From Schizochytrium sp. TIO01 (lineage: Eukaryota; Sar; Bigyra; Thraustochytrida; Thraustochytriidae): DNA of 64,000 nucleotides. Position 1 is the stretch's first letter; every line of letters begins with the position of its first letter. Shown here one piece after another: positions 11,356-37,643 of the stretch. The stretch spans positions 7,398,668-7,462,667 of the forward strand of contig SMSO01000032.1 of assembly GCA_004764695.1 (NCBI GenBank). Reading direction: 5' to 3'. The position numbers and the translations under genes are program-made. The notes under the pieces are model-generated. The model was not told the DNA's origin, did no database searches, and worked only from the letters and a program-made list of their open reading frames with translations.

Positions 11356-13515
11356 ATGGCAGCGCTTCCGGGTACGGAGAACTGGCCAGAAATTAGCTTT
11401 GCCGAACGACTAAGGGAAGTCACCCTGGTGTCGAGCGAACTTGTGATTGCACTATGCTACTTTGTGATTCCCGCACTCATTTTCTGGTACACTCGTGGTA
11501 TTCAAGTCGCAGCCTTGTTTCTCAAAGTAAGAATATGGTTCATGCTCTTTATCGTATGCTGCGGGTTAACACATTTCTTTGGGTTTCTTGGGTTTTGGTA
11601 CATCATGCCTAACCTCGTGGTACTCGGAAAGCTTGCCACGGCCACGGTCTCTGTAGGAACTGTTTGTATTCTGTTGAACTACATGTCAGAGATTCAAACC
11701 CTCATGGCTCGTGCATCGGCTTTGGAAAGGAGCGTGGAGAAAGCTACCTCACAACTCATCTCACTTAAAACTCGAAATGAGGAACTTGCGCGACTCAAGG
11801 AAGAGGCTATTCGCCTGGCAACGATGCGACAGGAGTTCATCTCTACTGTATCTCATGAGGTCCGTACTCCGCTCCAGAGCATTATCGGCTTTGGCGAAAT
11901 CCTTGAGCAGAGCGACCTCGACCCTTCACAGCAACAGATGCTTAAAACAATGCTTGAGAGCTCAAGAATGCTCTGCACAATCATCAACGACATCCTTGAC
12001 TTTAGTAAGTATCAAAAGGATGACTTCGTACTCGAAGATGAACCTTTCCCTATCATGGATGCCATCATCTCCTCTCTTCGCATTTCTTCAAACCGGGCGA
12101 CTAGTAAAGGTGTTACGCTGCGCTACAAAATTTGCAATCGTGTACCTGCCATTGTGTGCGGCGATCTCACTCGTATCGTACAGATTTTATCAAATTTGAT
12201 CTCTAACGGTGTTAAGTTCACGCCTGAAGGTGCTGTAAGTGTCCATGTTAATGTCGTCGAATCAAAATATGTTATGGATGCCTGGCTGCAAGACTTTTTC
12301 AATAGGCCTTGCACCTTCACACCCGTTCAGCCTAGTACCGCCAGTGACTTTGCTTCTATTGATGGTGTCGCGACTAAGCCCCGTACAATCAGTGAGACCA
12401 GTATAAGCAGCGAGCATGAAATCCCTATCCGGCCTAGCTCACCAACTGAAAACTCGAAACTTCTTGAGTCTCACCTCACTCCTCCCTGCGTTGACTCTCC
12501 TAGAAAGTCGAGAGGCCATAACAAAGATCTTCCATATGGTAAAAACCGGGAGGGGCCTTGGGGTATCATGTTACAAGTTATTGACTCTGGTGTTGGTGTT
12601 GCTCCAGAATCTTTTAATCGTATTTTCCGGCGTTTCATGCAGAGCGACACCTCGACCACTCGTATGTTTGGTGGAACTGGCCTTGGTCTGTCTATCGTTC
12701 AACAGCTGGCATCTCGTATGGGAGGTACTATCCATGTCGAAAGTGTCCAAGGGAAAGGTTCGATTTTCACTGTCTTTCTTCAACTGAAACCAACCGAGGA
12801 CAGTCCCTTGCTCACGCCATCGACATCATACGAAGTTCTACCTCCTCCTTCAATCTCACCAAAAACTGACCGTGTTGAAAAGGGACACAAACCCGTTGAC
12901 ATTGCTACTGTTGAGGACGCCTTACAACAATCGAATAGTGAAGTTGAGTCAAAAGCAGCAGCCGCATCAGAATCCGAGGTACCTCGTCCCAAATCTTTGC
13001 CAAAGACACCACCCAAGTCCGCGAAAAGCAATTCAACTAAGTCGCAGGTTCCAGTGACACCCCACAGAGCAAGGCGCGTTCTTCTTGTTGATGATAACGA
13101 GATTAATCGAGCTGTCACTAAGCCTATGTTACATAAAGCTGGCGTCCCCGATGTCAACACTGCATCCAATGGGCAGCAAGCCTACGAGGAGTTGGAGGAT
13201 ATGTCCGAGCCCTACGACGCAGTTTTCCTTGACCTTCATATGCCTGTTATGGATGGATACACCACTGTTGAAAAAATCCGAGCCAATCTCCCCTCGATCG
13301 ATAATATTCCCATTTTTGCCTTCACAGCCGCATCCTTTGACAATAAGGAAAGCCAGGAGCTTCGCGAGAAGGGTTTCTCGGGAATTGTTACTAAGCCTTG
13401 CACTCTTGCTCGCATTAAAAAGGCTCTCGACCTCACGATCGAATATAAGGAGAAGTTGATCTCCGAGGATGAACTCTTCACGCGCAGTGAAATGATCTGC
13501 TCGCAGCGCAACTAA
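11356..13515 (+). CDS. Hybrid histidine kinase with ethylene-receptor-like membrane sensor domain
   Basis: This is a 719-residue membrane-bound hybrid sensor kinase. Three hydrophobic helices (about 27-45, 57-80 and 85-108) are followed by a coiled coil (115-155). A HisKA domain follows with the H-box STVSHEVRTPLQ (phospho-acceptor His167), then a HATPase domain with an N-box (SNLISNGVKF, about 279-288), G1 (DSGVGV, from Asp410) and G2 (GGTGLGLS, from about 439). A C-terminal receiver begins at about 573 (VLLVDDNEIN), with phospho-acceptor Asp626 in FLDLHMPVMDG and Lys680 in VTKP. The membrane region matches the plant ETR1 ethylene-binding pattern. ALCYFVIP carries Tyr35, Ile38 and Pro39. CGLTH carries Cys69 and His73, the spacing of the ETR1 copper ligands Cys65 and His69. 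ETR1 Asp25 aligns with Glu28. No GAF domain is present. A Ser/Thr/Pro-rich insert of roughly 80-90 residues sits inside the ATPase domain (about 315-398). The ATG has purines just upstream. The ligand is inference. Confidence 0.92.
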   Translation: MAALPGTENWPEISFAERLREVTLVSSELVIALCYFVIPALIFWYTRGIQVAALFLKVRIWFMLFIVCCGLTHFFGFLGFWYIMPNLVVLGKLATATVSVGTVCILLNYMSEIQTLMARASALERSVEKATSQLISLKTRNEELARLKEEAIRLATMRQEFISTVSHEVRTPLQSIIGFGEILEQSDLDPSQQQMLKTMLESSRMLCTIINDILDFSKYQKDDFVLEDEPFPIMDAIISSLRISSNRATSKGVTLRYKICNRVPAIVCGDLTRIVQILSNLISNGVKFTPEGAVSVHVNVVESKYVMDAWLQDFFNRPCTFTPVQPSTASDFASIDGVATKPRTISETSISSEHEIPIRPSSPTENSKLLESHLTPPCVDSPRKSRGHNKDLPYGKNREGPWGIMLQVIDSGVGVAPESFNRIFRRFMQSDTSTTRMFGGTGLGLSIVQQLASRMGGTIHVESVQGKGSIFTVFLQLKPTEDSPLLTPSTSYEVLPPPSISPKTDRVEKGHKPVDIATVEDALQQSNSEVESKAAAASESEVPRPKSLPKTPPKSAKSNSTKSQVPVTPHRARRVLLVDDNEINRAVTKPMLHKAGVPDVNTASNGQQAYEELEDMSEPYDAVFLDLHMPVMDGYTTVEKIRANLPSIDNIPIFAFTAASFDNKESQELREKGFSGIVTKPCTLARIKKALDLTIEYKEKLISEDELFTRSEMICSQRN

Positions 13516-31289: not shown

Positions 31290-34200
31290 ATGAAGGCTCG
31301 TGTGCAGGGTAGCAGCAATGCAAGCTTTGAGGAGGCAGTAACCGTGAATCAGAGGGGTCTTATTGACAAGATCCTGGCACGGTATTCCACAGAGCTTACA
31401 CTTTTTCGGGAGCTCTTGCAAAATGCGAACGATGCTAAAGCTACGGAGCTTCAGATTAGATTTTCAGGAACAGGATACTGGGATGATCATGAGGAGACGA
31501 ATCTTGCGCGGGATGACAGTATAATCGGAGGTGTAACTCATGTGAAAACTCAAGACGGGATAGGGTCATCAAAAATTAGCACAGGTTCAATTGCTGGTAA
31601 CGCACAGGAGTTGAACCACCAGCAATCCCAACAAAGGCGCCGTAATAGAGCTATGGAAGATGAAGAGCGGAGCTTCACAGGTCTACGTCTTTGTAACAAT
31701 GGCATGGTATTTCGTAGTGAGGACTGGAACCGCATCAAGAGTATTGCAGATGGTAACCCTGATGAAACTAAGGTGGGTTTCTTTGGTGTGGGCTTCTATT
31801 CAGTTTTTAGTCTCTCAGACGAACCCACAGTCCTTTCTGGCCCAAAGGCTTTATCATTCCATTGGAAAAAGGATGCTCTCTTTGTGACTCATGGCGCTCC
31901 TCCGGAAGCTCGGGATGACGATCCTGAGGAAGATAAAATCATGTTCAAAATGGTACAGGATGAAGGCTGGACTGTGTTTGACTTGCCTGTGCGTTCTGAC
32001 CCGCCCAAACCAAAGCTACCAACTCCCAAAGAGCTGGCAGATTTTTTGGTACGCTGTCTCACATTTACCACGACTCTCGAGCTTGTAGAGGTGTATTATG
32101 ATGGACGGCGCGTGCTTTCTGTAGGGCGTGAGAGCACTAGCGATGTAACCTCGATGAGGGTCGGGTCTCAAGCATCCATGCCACAGGGTAGTATGTTTCG
32201 TTTTCAAGATGCTAGGACAGAACCTCTTCGTTACGCAATTCAGCATTATGATCGCCCAGCACCTGTAGTAGTAGAAATGATGAGAGTTTTGTCAAACTTT
32301 TCAGTCCATGTAGATGAAAGCTTCAGAGCGGCAATGTTCCGCGTCACAAAGAAAAATCCACCACGCCAGGTTGGAGTTCAACTTATTTTTGACACAGGCA
32401 AAGCATTGCAAACCTCCGCCACAGCTGCATCATGGAAAGACTTGGAATCTTTTTCACCAGCTTCGGCTCGAGGTGGTCACTTTTTCATTGGCTCAGGTGT
32501 CACTCAGCAGACTACTGGCTCAAAGTGTCATTGCAATGCACCATTCATGCCTACAATGGAGCGTAATTCAATGGACTTATCAGATATCACACTTGCAACG
32601 TGGAACCGAGCTCTTCTCTGGGCTACAGGTTTTCTTCAGCGCATCACATTTGAGCACCTGTGTGCCCCAGATCAGGGCGTGGCTTTTCAGTCTCGAATTG
32701 CCCCCCCACCAGCAGCAAGGTCCGGACTTCAAAACGGTAGCGGGGAAGCTGTCTCAGCAACGACTAGAAAACGAAATGAGAAGCTTTCTGCACTTTTTGC
32801 ATCTTATGATGCAGAAGAAGTATCCCAACATCAACAACAGCAAAAGGAAATGCAACAGCATCATAGCTCTACTCAAAGCTCCCAAGGCGCACAGGGCGAA
32901 GAAGCTACAGGTGCAACAAGTGTACCTCGGAATAAGGATACAAAATCTTTACAGCAAGAAAAGCGTATCCGTGTTCTCTCTGCAATGGCTACATTTGCTA
33001 TCAAAGAAACAACGCCTGTGCAGCAGGTAGGTGATATTGTTCTAGCTGGATTTTACAATGCTCTTAAAGAAACACCATATGTTTGGACAACCATGGGTGT
33101 TCGTAGAGCAACGCATGCGCGTATCAAAGACCGCACTGGTCTACATGAGATCGTTTATCATGCTGCTTCTATAGTCGATCTTCCTTCAGAAGTCCCCGGT
33201 CAAACCTCTGGTTCGCAAGCCGCAAAAGGTTTATCTTCAGTCGCCGATACACTTGCCAAGCAGGCGCGTTCAGCTATGGGCTTTTTTTCCTCCTTCATGG
33301 GGTCAGATAGTCAGCAAACTAATGACTCTTCATCTGTAAAGACTCGAAAAAGTGAAGCACCAATAAAAGAGTCACTTGCAGTGCTTTGCAAGCGTTTTGT
33401 CAAGGAGCTTAAACAACGAAGGTTATTGCGAGAACTTGACGTGCGCGATCTTGCTGCAGAACTTCAAGCTCGCCCGCTGAAAGACAACGAGGAGGTTATC
33501 AAATTGCTGCGGTGGTTACTTACGCGAGAACGTACACTGCGTCAATTGCGGGAGGAAGCAGCTGCTGATCGCGTAACATGCTTTTGTGATTGGTGCGGCA
33601 ATCAGATAGTGGTCACTCTTGAGGCTCTTCGTAGAGATATCCAGCGTCAAAAAGAGGCAGCTCAATCTCAAGGTTTTTTTAGTCGAGTTACCGCGAGCCT
33701 GACAGGCGGCAACGGCAACGATGATATTCAAGTGTCGTTAGAGTGCTCGCGATGCCAACAGATTTCATTTGTTAACCCGCACGAAGTCATCAGTTCGCTG
33801 AGCCAGGTGCAAGCTGCGACATCGCTCCCAAACAACAAGTTACTGGGCATGGCACGCACGACTGAGGGCAAACATTTATCTTCATATTCAAGATTTATCA
33901 GCAATACACTTCAGAAACGCATCAAAGCTTCGAGTGACAAGGGAATGCCTGAGCGCCTTGAAAAGGCGTTTTGGTCATCGAGAAGTACCCAGCAGAATGT
34001 TCTTCCACTGAGAATTTCACAAGAATTTAAGGACGAGGAGCTTTATGGTGTTGCGCAATGGGTGAATCCCCTATCATGGCAGGATTGGTGCAACGTATGT
34101 ATTTCAGTTGCCAGAAACGCTCCTCGAGTTCAGGCCTCCCAGAACACAAAGGCAGCATCTTCAACTACCAATGCAGATTTAGGTCAAAACGCTTCTGCTG

Positions 34201-37200
34201 ATGATGCTACCATAGGTAACGGAAGTGCCAGCAGTAACGTTAGTGAGTTAAGTCTAGAAAACCTTGCGATTGCTTCAAATGTAATTCGTGTGGTTGCATT
34301 TGCTCTGTACTATAATGAAGTACAGGGTGATGGTCAGGCCTATCTTATGTCTCTTTTAATTGGCTCAGAGTGTATGCCAGTTCGTACTCGTCAACTCATG
34401 AAACCTGCAGAGACATATCTGGGCGCAGAAGCAACGGGTGGCTTCTCAAGCCTTCCTGTAGCTGCTTTGTGCGAAGCTCTTGAGGATGGAACTTATGTCA
34501 TAAATGAAGCGGTTCCCAAAGACCAGGCTGTGGTCCGATTGATGAAGCAATTACACGTTAAACAACATGTAGATCTAGCGTTTGTGTTCGAGGAGTTTAA
34601 CAAGGGTTCACTAGGCTGGAACAGACAAGAGATTCTTCACTACATTGCTGGCCTTCGGCATAAATTAGATCAAAACGAGATGAAGCGGCTCCAGCGAATG
34701 TGTTTTCTTCCTAAAGTCGAAGTCCGCGATGGAGGAAAAGCGTACCCCTCTTTGCAGTCTTTTGATGCCTCCACATTGCATTTTCCTAATCCTGAGATTG
34801 CTAGTCTTGGGGTGCCAATGGTATACGCTGTTGTTGAGGAGGGTCTAGCATTTGATTCAGAAGAAGGAAAAGACACAACTAAGGGAGGCTCTGCAACTAC
34901 GGCACGCTCGTTCTTCGATGTGACAGCCGAGAAAATGGACAATGCAACACAACTCCTTCTCAAGGAACTCGGTGTTCATACCCATCCATCGCTTGAGGTT
35001 GTTCTCCATCGTGCTGCTTCCGGGCCTGACGAAAAGTCGCGCCAGGCAGCCCTGTGGTATTTGGTGAAACATTTTGAGATCTATCGCAAAGACTATTCTA
35101 CTCGAGTCCGTCTTGCATTCATCCCATGTACTGATGGCAAGCTTTACCATCCTCTACGTTGCTTTACGGACCCCCAGGTTGCATTCTTAACGCACCCGTG
35201 CGTTGACGATAATTTCTTACCGGCTAAATATGCTCGACTCTTGGGTGTTCGCGAAAGCCCATCTTCAGAAGAAATTATGCAAGCTCTTGTTCGCTCCCCA
35301 CCAGAAATCAAGGTAGCATCGAAGGTATTCGAGTACGTTGCGACACTTCTCCCTTCCATGCAGCGTTCACATCTTCACGAGCTGAGTAGTAAGCCAATCA
35401 TTCCCTTACAATCTGACCAAGGGCAAGTGCAGTATAAGTCCCCTCGCACAGTTTACTTCCGTCCCCGGTCCAAGGCGAGGGGTAGGTATGAAGGTCTTTT
35501 CCCTTACGTTTTGTATGAGTCGGATGCAGCAAATATGTTCTTGCGGTCTGTGGGTGTACGTGATGAGCCTACCGTAGATGAACTCGCTGCGCTGCTTTCA
35601 AACAGCGAGCAAGCAGAGCGACACTTTCAGAGAGAAGGACCTGCAGCATACCTTCAGGTATTACGGTTGCTTGCAGTAGAATGGGGTTCGATATCTGCCA
35701 CAACTCGCACCAAAATGTCTCGTGCGAAATGCCTCATTGGGGTGAAGAGCGTACATATTAGCACAAGAGAGACAGATTCTTCCTCAAACGTAGCTAATCT
35801 CAGCGGGGATGATACCATGGTTCCTGATGACGACGATGAGGTGATGGAAACTGAAGGTGAGGGTGTTACCTACCATTTGGCTACACCTCGGGAAATCTAT
35901 ATTAATGATCATGCAGTCATGTATAGAATTTTTGAACCCATGGTTGCACCCTCAGAAGACATCTTCGAACCCATGTATCAAAGTTTGGGAAGCCAGACGC
36001 TGTCAACTGCAGTCGCAATTCGAACTCAGCCTACTCCACCTTATGCTGTCACGGATGCCACAAGGAAGCTTGAAGAGAAAATTCGACGCCGTGTTCAACT
36101 ATTCTTTTTCAAGCGCCGCAAATCAGACTTTACATCCGATGCAGATAAATGGATGTCTGTCTTTCACAATCAAAGCAAGTCATTTATTTATGAAGTGCCA
36201 CATATTACCCGTATGCTTGAGCTCAATGGAGTTCGCAAAAAAATTAGCGTGACAGCATTCGCTGTGAACGCCCGTAATCGGGCGCTTCTTGTAACTGCCC
36301 GATGCTCTGTATCTGATTGTGCCTCAGAGTTGTGCAGCGTGCTGCTCCGGAAAAGTACTTTGAATGATAATCTTTTGTGGAGTACGATCATTCAAAGCTC
36401 AGACCAGCAGCTACGTGATCAAGGTTTTCCTGTAGCTCGTAAAGTGAACAATCCACCACCTGTCGCTGTACCTGTCGCACAGCCAGTTGCAACAGAAACA
36501 GATTCTTCATCGACGCAACATGGCAGTAGTGTAGCATCATCTGCAATAGCCAAAACGCTTCAAAACAACGCAGAGAATCCTTCTCAGCCTCAGGAAAGCA
36601 AAAGTGAGACAGCTGTGAAAACACCTTCACCTACCTCTGCGGCAAGTTCATCAAGCCCTGATAATAGCTCTGCGGCAGGATCCAATGCAAAAACACCTCC
36701 TGATTCATCAAGCAGCCCAACTCACGAAGCTTCACCTCCGCCAGCCCCACAAAAACGTCGATCGCTTCGTAATTTACTCGGTTCTGTTTTACCCAAAGGT
36801 TCAAGCGGCAGTCTAGGCAAAGCTGCAGCTGCGGCCGCAGCAGGCCAGGATCTTGATAAACTTAAATCGCTGATTCCTCCGCAAATGCAACAGCAGCTTC
36901 AGCAGCAAGCTCAGGCTCAAGCACACCAAGGTCAATCAACAGTACCTCAAGAAGGGGCACAGGGTGGATCTTCAACAGCAGATCCCCTAGTTAATAGAGC
37001 ATTTAGAAAACAAGCGCTTCAATCTGGACTGAATCGTTGTAACCCTGGTGGTAACGCTGATGTAATCCGTTCTGCAGCAAGTGAGCGTGTGATGGCGCCG
37101 TTACTGGATGACTTGCATGAACATAATCTAGTTCGGGTCCCAATTCAGTTCGCTGGTTTGGATTGCTATGTCGAAGAAGGAGCTGGTTCTCCTGATATTT

Positions 37201-37643
37201 ATCAAAAGCGCGCTGTTGAAGCCACAGCATTCGCTCAGCTGCTGTTAGGCATTGCTTTTAAGGTTTTTGGTCTTCGTAGCGGTTCAGTTTGTCACTTGTA
37301 TTACCATCACCAAGGACGCACTGCCGCATTCAATCGTGGAGGAGCCTTGTACTTCAATTTCGATGTGTTTTTAAATCAACTTGAGCTGTCAGGATGGGAT
37401 GTGCATACACTAGTAGGCTCTGACATGCAGCCTCGATTTGTTCTCCCGCCAGAGGCCATCATCGACTGGTTTGGTGTTTTCGGCCATGAGCTGGCTCATA
37501 ATCATAAGGGTGAGCATGATGCAGAGTTTTCCAATTGGATGATGATGTATTTGACCACGTATGTGGAGAATCTTTCTTCTTATTTAGATCAGATTCGCGT
37601 TGCTATACAAACTCAAGAGCTACCTCGCGCCCTTGAGTTGTAG
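31290..37643 (+). CDS. Giant GHKL/Hsp90-like ATPase-domain protein with C-terminal HExxH motif (DUF3684-like)
   Basis: A 2117-residue protein in one uninterrupted exon. The N-terminus is a GHKL (Hsp90/sacsin-like) ATP-binding fold: ELLQNANDAKATELQI (about 41-56), LRLCNNGMVF, and the lid/glycine motif KVGFFGVGFYSVFSL (161-175). This start resembles sacsin and the fungal family with Pfam DUF3684. Residues 766-822 hold two CxxC pairs (Cys766/769 and Cys819/822), a probable zinc ribbon. A coiled, mixed middle follows, then a Ser/Pro/Gln/Ala-rich disordered part (about 1730-1910). The C-terminal domain ends with the zinc-peptidase-type motif HELAH (2066-2070) within FGHELAHNHKGEHDAEF; His2076 is a possible further ligand. 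I recall a similar HExxH at the C-terminus of the fungal homologues. Chaperone-like ATPase activity is likely, and peptidase activity is only suggested by the motif. The ATG follows gcaac. Confidence 0.88.
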   Translation: MKARVQGSSNASFEEAVTVNQRGLIDKILARYSTELTLFRELLQNANDAKATELQIRFSGTGYWDDHEETNLARDDSIIGGVTHVKTQDGIGSSKISTGSIAGNAQELNHQQSQQRRRNRAMEDEERSFTGLRLCNNGMVFRSEDWNRIKSIADGNPDETKVGFFGVGFYSVFSLSDEPTVLSGPKALSFHWKKDALFVTHGAPPEARDDDPEEDKIMFKMVQDEGWTVFDLPVRSDPPKPKLPTPKELADFLVRCLTFTTTLELVEVYYDGRRVLSVGRESTSDVTSMRVGSQASMPQGSMFRFQDARTEPLRYAIQHYDRPAPVVVEMMRVLSNFSVHVDESFRAAMFRVTKKNPPRQVGVQLIFDTGKALQTSATAASWKDLESFSPASARGGHFFIGSGVTQQTTGSKCHCNAPFMPTMERNSMDLSDITLATWNRALLWATGFLQRITFEHLCAPDQGVAFQSRIAPPPAARSGLQNGSGEAVSATTRKRNEKLSALFASYDAEEVSQHQQQQKEMQQHHSSTQSSQGAQGEEATGATSVPRNKDTKSLQQEKRIRVLSAMATFAIKETTPVQQVGDIVLAGFYNALKETPYVWTTMGVRRATHARIKDRTGLHEIVYHAASIVDLPSEVPGQTSGSQAAKGLSSVADTLAKQARSAMGFFSSFMGSDSQQTNDSSSVKTRKSEAPIKESLAVLCKRFVKELKQRRLLRELDVRDLAAELQARPLKDNEEVIKLLRWLLTRERTLRQLREEAAADRVTCFCDWCGNQIVVTLEALRRDIQRQKEAAQSQGFFSRVTASLTGGNGNDDIQVSLECSRCQQISFVNPHEVISSLSQVQAATSLPNNKLLGMARTTEGKHLSSYSRFISNTLQKRIKASSDKGMPERLEKAFWSSRSTQQNVLPLRISQEFKDEELYGVAQWVNPLSWQDWCNVCISVARNAPRVQASQNTKAASSTTNADLGQNASADDATIGNGSASSNVSELSLENLAIASNVIRVVAFALYYNEVQGDGQAYLMSLLIGSECMPVRTRQLMKPAETYLGAEATGGFSSLPVAALCEALEDGTYVINEAVPKDQAVVRLMKQLHVKQHVDLAFVFEEFNKGSLGWNRQEILHYIAGLRHKLDQNEMKRLQRMCFLPKVEVRDGGKAYPSLQSFDASTLHFPNPEIASLGVPMVYAVVEEGLAFDSEEGKDTTKGGSATTARSFFDVTAEKMDNATQLLLKELGVHTHPSLEVVLHRAASGPDEKSRQAALWYLVKHFEIYRKDYSTRVRLAFIPCTDGKLYHPLRCFTDPQVAFLTHPCVDDNFLPAKYARLLGVRESPSSEEIMQALVRSPPEIKVASKVFEYVATLLPSMQRSHLHELSSKPIIPLQSDQGQVQYKSPRTVYFRPRSKARGRYEGLFPYVLYESDAANMFLRSVGVRDEPTVDELAALLSNSEQAERHFQREGPAAYLQVLRLLAVEWGSISATTRTKMSRAKCLIGVKSVHISTRETDSSSNVANLSGDDTMVPDDDDEVMETEGEGVTYHLATPREIYINDHAVMYRIFEPMVAPSEDIFEPMYQSLGSQTLSTAVAIRTQPTPPYAVTDATRKLEEKIRRRVQLFFFKRRKSDFTSDADKWMSVFHNQSKSFIYEVPHITRMLELNGVRKKISVTAFAVNARNRALLVTARCSVSDCASELCSVLLRKSTLNDNLLWSTIIQSSDQQLRDQGFPVARKVNNPPPVAVPVAQPVATETDSSSTQHGSSVASSAIAKTLQNNAENPSQPQESKSETAVKTPSPTSAASSSSPDNSSAAGSNAKTPPDSSSSPTHEASPPPAPQKRRSLRNLLGSVLPKGSSGSLGKAAAAAAAGQDLDKLKSLIPPQMQQQLQQQAQAQAHQGQSTVPQEGAQGGSSTADPLVNRAFRKQALQSGLNRCNPGGNADVIRSAASERVMAPLLDDLHEHNLVRVPIQFAGLDCYVEEGAGSPDIYQKRAVEATAFAQLLLGIAFKVFGLRSGSVCHLYYHHQGRTAAFNRGGALYFNFDVFLNQLELSGWDVHTLVGSDMQPRFVLPPEAIIDWFGVFGHELAHNHKGEHDAEFSNWMMMYLTTYVENLSSYLDQIRVAIQTQELPRALEL

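Follow-up and report, generated by a model that had tools for sequence, protein, structure and literature searches.

Introduction

Homologues of ethylene receptors have been described in amoebae, brown algae, diatoms, Labyrinthulomycetes and Capsaspora (2019 review, PMC6944256). For Labyrinthulomycetes and the SAR group they are credited to Kabbara et al. (2019), as cited in PMC6944256, and they are also covered in a paper from 2020 (PMC7700396), which describes the SAR homologues as not yet functionally tested. Early-diverging fungi are reported to carry homologues with all crucial residues (PMC5285503). Ethylene binding has been reported for two mushroom proteins, one of which lacks a GAF domain; according to the alignment in that study these proteins retain two out of three essential residues, and gas chromatography was unable to show saturation (PMC9603746). 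Saturable ethylene binding has been described for AzoEtr1 of Azospirillum (PMC11819568), and responses have been reported for a receptor of Synechocystis (PMC6682694).

In Arabidopsis ETR1, the copper is assigned to Cys65 and His69 and contacts Asp25 infrequently, and the plant dimer is bridged by the Cys4/Cys6 pair (PMC6586836). Mutation of either Cys65 or Asp25 abolishes binding, and the role suggested for Asp25 is to position His69 and form a pair with Lys91 (PMC11819568).

Thraustochytrids are cultivated for omega-3 oil (PMC7277723), and a gas signal acting on their physiology would therefore be useful in practice. Our literature search for thraustochytrids together with ethylene receptor and histidine kinase retrieved no paper, and the search for Labyrinthulomycetes and ethylene receptor retrieved the 2019 review only. 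Among the matches listed for phytohormones in Aurantiochytrium or Schizochytrium, PMC7277723 contains 'ethylene' only inside the word 'ethylenediaminetetraacetic'.

Results

Gene and domain architecture

The window, which is the whole stretch of 64,000 nucleotides analysed here, carries at 11356..13515 on the forward strand an open reading frame for a hybrid histidine kinase with an N-terminal ethylene-binding-type domain. This frame extends from ATG to TAA and was read through 719 codons (719 aa) without an internal stop. In Pfam, residues 25-115 (11428..11700, +) matched the ETR1_N family (PF25487) with an E-value of 1.4e-16 and 61 bits (cut-off 27), and membrane helices are predicted for this region. 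The only other match at E<=1 apart from the kinase and receiver families was a weak tropomyosin hit (0.69), and neither GAF nor MASE domains were detected at this threshold. Thus, the profile search proposed in the first-pass annotation retrieved the ethylene-receptor-type sensor domain that had been claimed there, rather than no match or a better match to an unrelated MASE or 4TM domain. When the protein was compared with NCBIfam, 138 families matched. The 25 listed were kinase families that all scored below their cut-offs and were confined to the kinase, the receiver or the linker preceding them; among these, a family named after MASE3 matched residues 404-482 only, which belong to the kinase.

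Downstream of the sensor, HisKA occupies residues 157-220 (11824..12015, +) with His167 as phospho-acceptor in the motif SHEVRTP. The ATPase domain (HATPase_c) follows with its N box at residues 280-290 (+; NLISNGVKFTP) and its C-terminal part with the G1, F and G2 boxes (best stretch 404-478; 12565..12789, +; DSGVGV, GGTGLGL). Between the N box and the G1 box it is interrupted by a Ser/Pro/Thr-rich insert of about 94 residues (12268..12549, +). The receiver (Response_reg, residues 575-691; 13078..13428, +) contains VDDNE, FLDLHMPVMDG with the phospho-acceptor Asp626, AFTA and TKPC, so that its acidic, Thr and Lys residues are in place. All elements of a hybrid histidine kinase (HisKA with its His, ATPase boxes, receiver with its Asp) were found in this one protein, as the first reading of the DNA had supposed, and judged by its motifs the complete set expected of a working kinase and receiver is present. 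Two hallmarks of plant subfamily-1 receptors are missing: the GAF domain that separates sensor and kinase, the absence of which had been noticed before, and the N-terminal Cys pair for a covalent dimer (zero Cys within residues 1-26). Elsewhere in the window (31290-37643), a frame of 2117 aa matched DUF3684 (1e-126) and a sacsin-like family (8e-17).

Predicted structure of the membrane domain

Hydrophobic stretches were located at residues 21-49, 48-84 (two overlapping segments) and 87-107. For residues 1-160, a structural model that drew on the window protein and 49 of the 80 bacterial loci introduced below reached a mean pLDDT of 91.9 and a pTM of 0.71. Its major helices comprise residues 15-46, 56-79 and 85-159, which places three predicted membrane helices (the third from residue 85 onward) in front of the kinase. 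Residues 85-159 (11608..11832, +) form a single continuous helix in this model, leading from membrane helix 3 via a coiled coil into the kinase. The direct coiled-coil connection between sensor and kinase suggested earlier is supported by this unbroken helix. According to the model, the helix would couple sensor and kinase mechanically and directly, where plant receptors have their GAF domain.

Hydrophobic domains of three helices are widespread. The membrane domain found no sequence match among solved structures, and a Foldseek search of the model against the PDB gave no fold match at E<=0.001, which would speak for a chance resemblance of an unrelated three-helix sensor. Nevertheless, we consider such a resemblance virtually negligible, given the strong ETR1_N match, the fact that Pfam offered no rival sensor family at E<=1, the residue-level match of the site described below and the detection of the domain at two places in 64 Mb. 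As a candidate in its own right, an unrelated three-helix sensor was rejected on the Pfam result (ETR1_N at 1.4e-16, no MASE).

Residues of the putative ethylene-binding site

The ETR1 reference sequence in all comparisons was entered by hand. The residues required for ethylene binding by ETR1 we take to be Asp25, Tyr32, Ile35, Pro36, Ile62, Cys65 and His69. Part of this list appears in PMC6586836 and PMC11819568. Six of the seven are kept in the window protein, namely Tyr35, Ile38, Pro39, Ile66 (ETR1 Ile62), Cys69 and His73, and the alignment agrees with the earlier observation that five of them (Tyr35, Ile38, Pro39, Cys69, His73) follow the spacing of ETR1. The positions of the copper ligands Cys65 and His69 are filled by Cys69 and His73 (CGLTH, 11560..11574, +), and Lys92 aligns with ETR1 Lys91. 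Over the whole domain, 25 of 92 aligned positions (27%) are identical with ETR1, as compared with 6/7 at the site (hypergeometric p=0.0014).

The sole changed site residue is Glu28 (codon gaa, 11437..11439, +), which aligns with ETR1 Asp25. The first-pass annotation had recorded this substitution correctly but had treated it too lightly: mutation at this position abolishes ETR1 binding (PMC11819568), and Glu occurs in none of the aligned prokaryotic homologues. The longer acid could preserve the charge and the contact with Lys92, or it could disturb them.

Glu28 in comparison with homologues

The comparison for Glu28 covers prokaryotic homologues plus the hand-entered ETR1 as sole eukaryotic relative. 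For a first set, 80 bacterial loci were kept out of 111 confirmed ones; the search alignment consisted of the window protein and two plasmid-borne homologues. The position of Asp25 was occupied by Asp in 79/80 and by Asn in 1/80 of these loci, and never by Glu (0/80), while Tyr32 (80/80), Cys65 (79/80) and His69 (80/80) were retained, in a sample that leans to intact sites because the search patterns demanded site residues (one stretch had to contain Asp/Glu plus Tyr, the other Ile plus Cys). A profile search recovered the domain in 74 of 292 genomes of the phylum of one cyanobacterium. From a second set of 43 loci, 42 were read, 12 of which come from first-set genomes; L132 did not fit the text pattern used for reading. 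Here, we found Asp in 40/42, Asn in 2/42 and Glu in 0/42. As the pattern itself demanded Cys and His, this set is uninformative for those two residues.

A third set of 21 divergent homologues comprised the 20 lowest full matches listed for the cyanobacterial phylum together with L132; one partial match was left out, and some genomes contribute two or three rows. Asp was present in 17/21, Asn in 2/21 and a gap in 2/21, and Glu was again missing (0/21). Cys65 was kept in 12/21, His69 in 13/21 and both copper ligands in 7/21. Only 2/21 retained all of Tyr32, Ile35, Pro36, Ile62, Cys65 and His69, and 19/21 had lost at least one of these residues. When scored with a profile built without the window protein and its paralogue, 20 of the 21 surpassed the window protein, although this profile is rich in cyanobacterial rows and favours cyanobacterial scores, and distant rows may be misaligned at single residues. 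The copper ligands or Pro36 were lost in the ETR1_N domains of L174, L178, L171, L168 and others of the cyanobacterial phylum, and domains of this kind could possibly constitute a class of non-ethylene sensors.

Taken with caution, these alignments suggest that the family often loses the site while diverging and that the two protist proteins did not. As loss appears easy in divergent homologues, retention of the site in the window protein is suggestive of selection. Glu at the Asp25 position is, on these alignments, rare among prokaryotes, and the copper site of the window protein is otherwise intact by sequence. The same numbers bear on whether the membrane domain might be a ligand-free remnant that merely anchors and dimerizes the kinase. 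Non-binders seem to exist, since 19/21 divergent cyanobacterial members lost at least one of six residues; however, the window protein keeps 6/7 although 20/21 of these homologues outscore it, and it agrees with ETR1 more often at the site than over the domain as a whole (p=0.0014). We therefore regard a remnant as quite improbable.

A paralogue in the same genome

When the genome of the organism (64.06 Mb, 37 contigs) was searched in six frames, PF25487 matched at two places, and it matched in none of 14 control genomes, all of which are prokaryotes; since introns were ignored, such counts are lower bounds. The second place is locus L002 (C24:5590879-5591133), which is located on a different contig from the window. 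The ETR1_N match of this paralogue (E=5.8e-14) is followed by HisKA, HATPase_c and a receiver with complete motifs, although the locus as read stops short of its stop codon. It carries Asp at the Asp25 position and thus all seven site residues, with 25/85 positions (29%) identical with ETR1 overall and 7/7 at the site (p=0.0001).

The membrane domains of the two proteins share only 22 of 85 aligned positions and hence do not stem from a recent duplication. In a tree of 113 domains and 96 columns, the branches of the window protein and the paralogue were very long, at 4.88 and 6.75 changes per column, and the two were not joined together. A branch with support of 100/89 separates 15 rows including both proteins from 98 rows, which contain ETR1, in a poorly resolved part, and all cyanobacterial rows except L085. 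In AU tests, a grouping of the window protein with the paralogue was not rejected (p=0.18), nor was a grouping with 33 cyanobacterial rows plus ETR1 of the window protein (p=0.45), the paralogue (p=0.38) or both (p=0.43). Two pattern searches of viral contigs, the second with the whole protein as query, gave 31 and 2 matches with zero confirmed relatives, which is a weak test of viral carriage as the patterns were narrow.

The divergence of the two copies could also mean that the window copy has drifted: it might keep copper via Cys69/His73 and sense copper status, redox or another gas, whilst the paralogue remains the ethylene receptor. Glu28 is found in none of the aligned prokaryotic homologues, the paralogue retains Asp and the membrane domains are identical at no more than 22/85 positions, all of which would fit such a drift. 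On the other hand, the remaining site residues and Lys92 are all kept, Glu preserves the charge of Asp, and the sequence showed no sign of another ligand. Weighing both sides, we hold a changed input to be doubtful.

Host organism

The heterokont-like host postulated in the first reading is supported by mitochondrial genes that avoid TTA and by a PfaA-type synthase, which together point to a labyrinthulomycete. In a mitochondrial locus (65% A+T), cox1 contains zero TTA codons between its ATG and the first stop, together with 28 TTG and 23 CTA; the sole TTA of the frame precedes the ATG. The 457-codon frame next to it, judged by eye to be nad4, has 0 TTA, 31 TTG and 15 CTA. TTA is a stop codon in NCBI table 23, the mitochondrial code of Thraustochytrium, and its apparent avoidance fits this code. 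As a side observation, cox1 scored equally at C15:20749-22092, C15:61898-63241 and C37:7229-8572, which suggests that the assembly contains mitochondrial sequence in repeated or concatenated form.

Clusters of PfaA-type synthases are typical of thraustochytrids. A frame of 2172 aa for such a polyunsaturated fatty acid synthase was found at C4:611-617 kb and reached, together with its neighbours, 1157 bits (cut-off 1010). The preceding frame of 1031 aa covers the beginning of the profile (926 bits, by itself below the cut-off). Some 14 kb before the PfaA-type frame, a further frame on the other strand corresponds to profile positions 189-465.

Partner proteins and putative signalling route

HisKA was detected at eight places in the genome, two of which are the ETR1_N kinases; in the other six HisKA kinases Pfam found no ETR1_N. 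One additional sensor observed is a GAF-PHY (phytochrome-like) hybrid histidine kinase (L016:28-3111, C24 ~2861776, 1028 aa read). Receivers were present at 18 places. Seven further receiver frames were scanned, six of which carry an ATPase domain with HisKA not above the cut-off. One HPt domain was found, in a frame of 186 aa with the motif AHSIKGSS. L115:142-2124 (C36 ~4469354) fuses a receiver (Response_reg 5e-11) to an HMG box (HMG_box_2 8e-13) and is possibly an unusual DNA-binding response regulator. This protein and L103 (receiver plus PAS domain) are candidate outputs. The EIN3 DNA-binding family was not found in the genome, which says little as the controls were silent too.

Two frames for copper P-type ATPases scored above the curated cut-off, which makes copper delivery possible; such frames also occur in 13/14 control genomes and are unspecific. 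As a separate observation, the window contains a SCO1/SenC copper chaperone (3e-41) at 340-1110 on the reverse strand, about 10 kb from the receptor gene.

From these components we infer the following route. The protein would form a membrane dimer, in which Cu(I) is most likely coordinated by Cys69 and His73 of the three-helix domain, and ethylene or a similar small alkene would bind at the copper. The resulting change would reach the kinase core through the unbroken helix that starts as membrane helix 3 and alter, in one direction or the other, the phosphorylation of His167. The phosphate would be passed to Asp626 of the attached receiver, then to the sole HPt found and finally to a response regulator, for which the candidate outputs named above come into question.

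Discussion

The window protein belongs to a known kind of protein that is already in print for Labyrinthulomycetes; what is less usual is Glu28, a rare residue among the aligned prokaryotes, beside a canonical paralogue. Sensing of gaseous hydrocarbons outside plants and cyanobacteria, as initially proposed for this gene, is a fair reading of the data, but the novelty implied by that proposal does not hold, because homologues had been published before. With labyrinthulomycete homologues already reported, the discovery is a modest one.

Overall, the window protein belongs to the ethylene-receptor-type sensor family, and we favour as reasonably probable that, in a thraustochytrid-like labyrinthulomycete, it works as proposed. 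The site is kept at 6/7 and 7/7 positions in the two copies despite 27% and 29% identity with ETR1, which argues for a receptor function. The ETR1_N matches of both copies, the three-helix model and the complete kinase motifs point in the same direction, as do the HPt, the HMG-box receiver protein and, unspecifically, the copper ATPases, and the GAF-less mushroom kinase reported to bind ethylene in yeast (PMC9603746) offers an analogy. Against a receptor speak Glu28, which is absent from the aligned prokaryotes at a position where ETR1 mutants lose binding (PMC11819568), and the lack of both the near-invariant N-terminal Cys of the bacterial proteins and plant Cys4/Cys6. Moreover, the mushroom precedent is a loose one in view of its two of three essential residues and the saturation problem (PMC9603746).

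The window protein would probably bind both copper and ethylene. For ethylene as such we lean only slightly towards binding by the window protein, the affinity or ligand range of which is uncertain because of Glu28. Binding by the paralogue seems clearly probable, and with its Asp this copy would be the more standard and safer ethylene receptor of the pair. In this heterotrophic protist the two copies might even read two ranges of concentration or two small molecules, with a canonical Asp receptor complemented by a Glu form tuned in affinity or ligand range; we consider this specialization unlikely.

Microbial ethylene sensing has been little tested; the papers considered here report binding in Azospirillum (PMC11819568) and in a mushroom (PMC9603746). 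As the two putative receptors carry different acids at the key position, they provide a natural comparison for the role of Asp25.

Among the known systems, the homologues of Labyrinthulomycetes and other SAR organisms are, as described in the reviews (PMC6944256, PMC7700396), of the same kind as the window protein and come from the organism group to which its host probably belongs. Arabidopsis ETR1 (subfamily 1) shares with it the three-helix domain, 6/7 site residues, the kinase and the receiver, whereas the window protein differs by the missing GAF domain and N-terminal cysteines, by Glu in place of Asp25 and by a domain identity of only 27%. AbETR2 of Agaricus bisporus is similarly a eukaryotic hybrid kinase with a membrane domain and no GAF, and it is reported to bind ethylene in yeast; as described in PMC9603746, it is unlike the window protein in its fungal origin, in a cysteine in predicted helix 3 and in having two of three essential residues. 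The bacterial ETR1_N proteins (AzoEtr1 and the 80 loci), compared over ETR1_N only, have the same membrane domain with a best identity to the window protein of 37% over 92 columns. Their consensus shows an N-terminal PHGxC with a near-invariant Cys that the window protein does not have, and they carry Asp (79/80) or Asn (1/80) where the window protein has Glu28.
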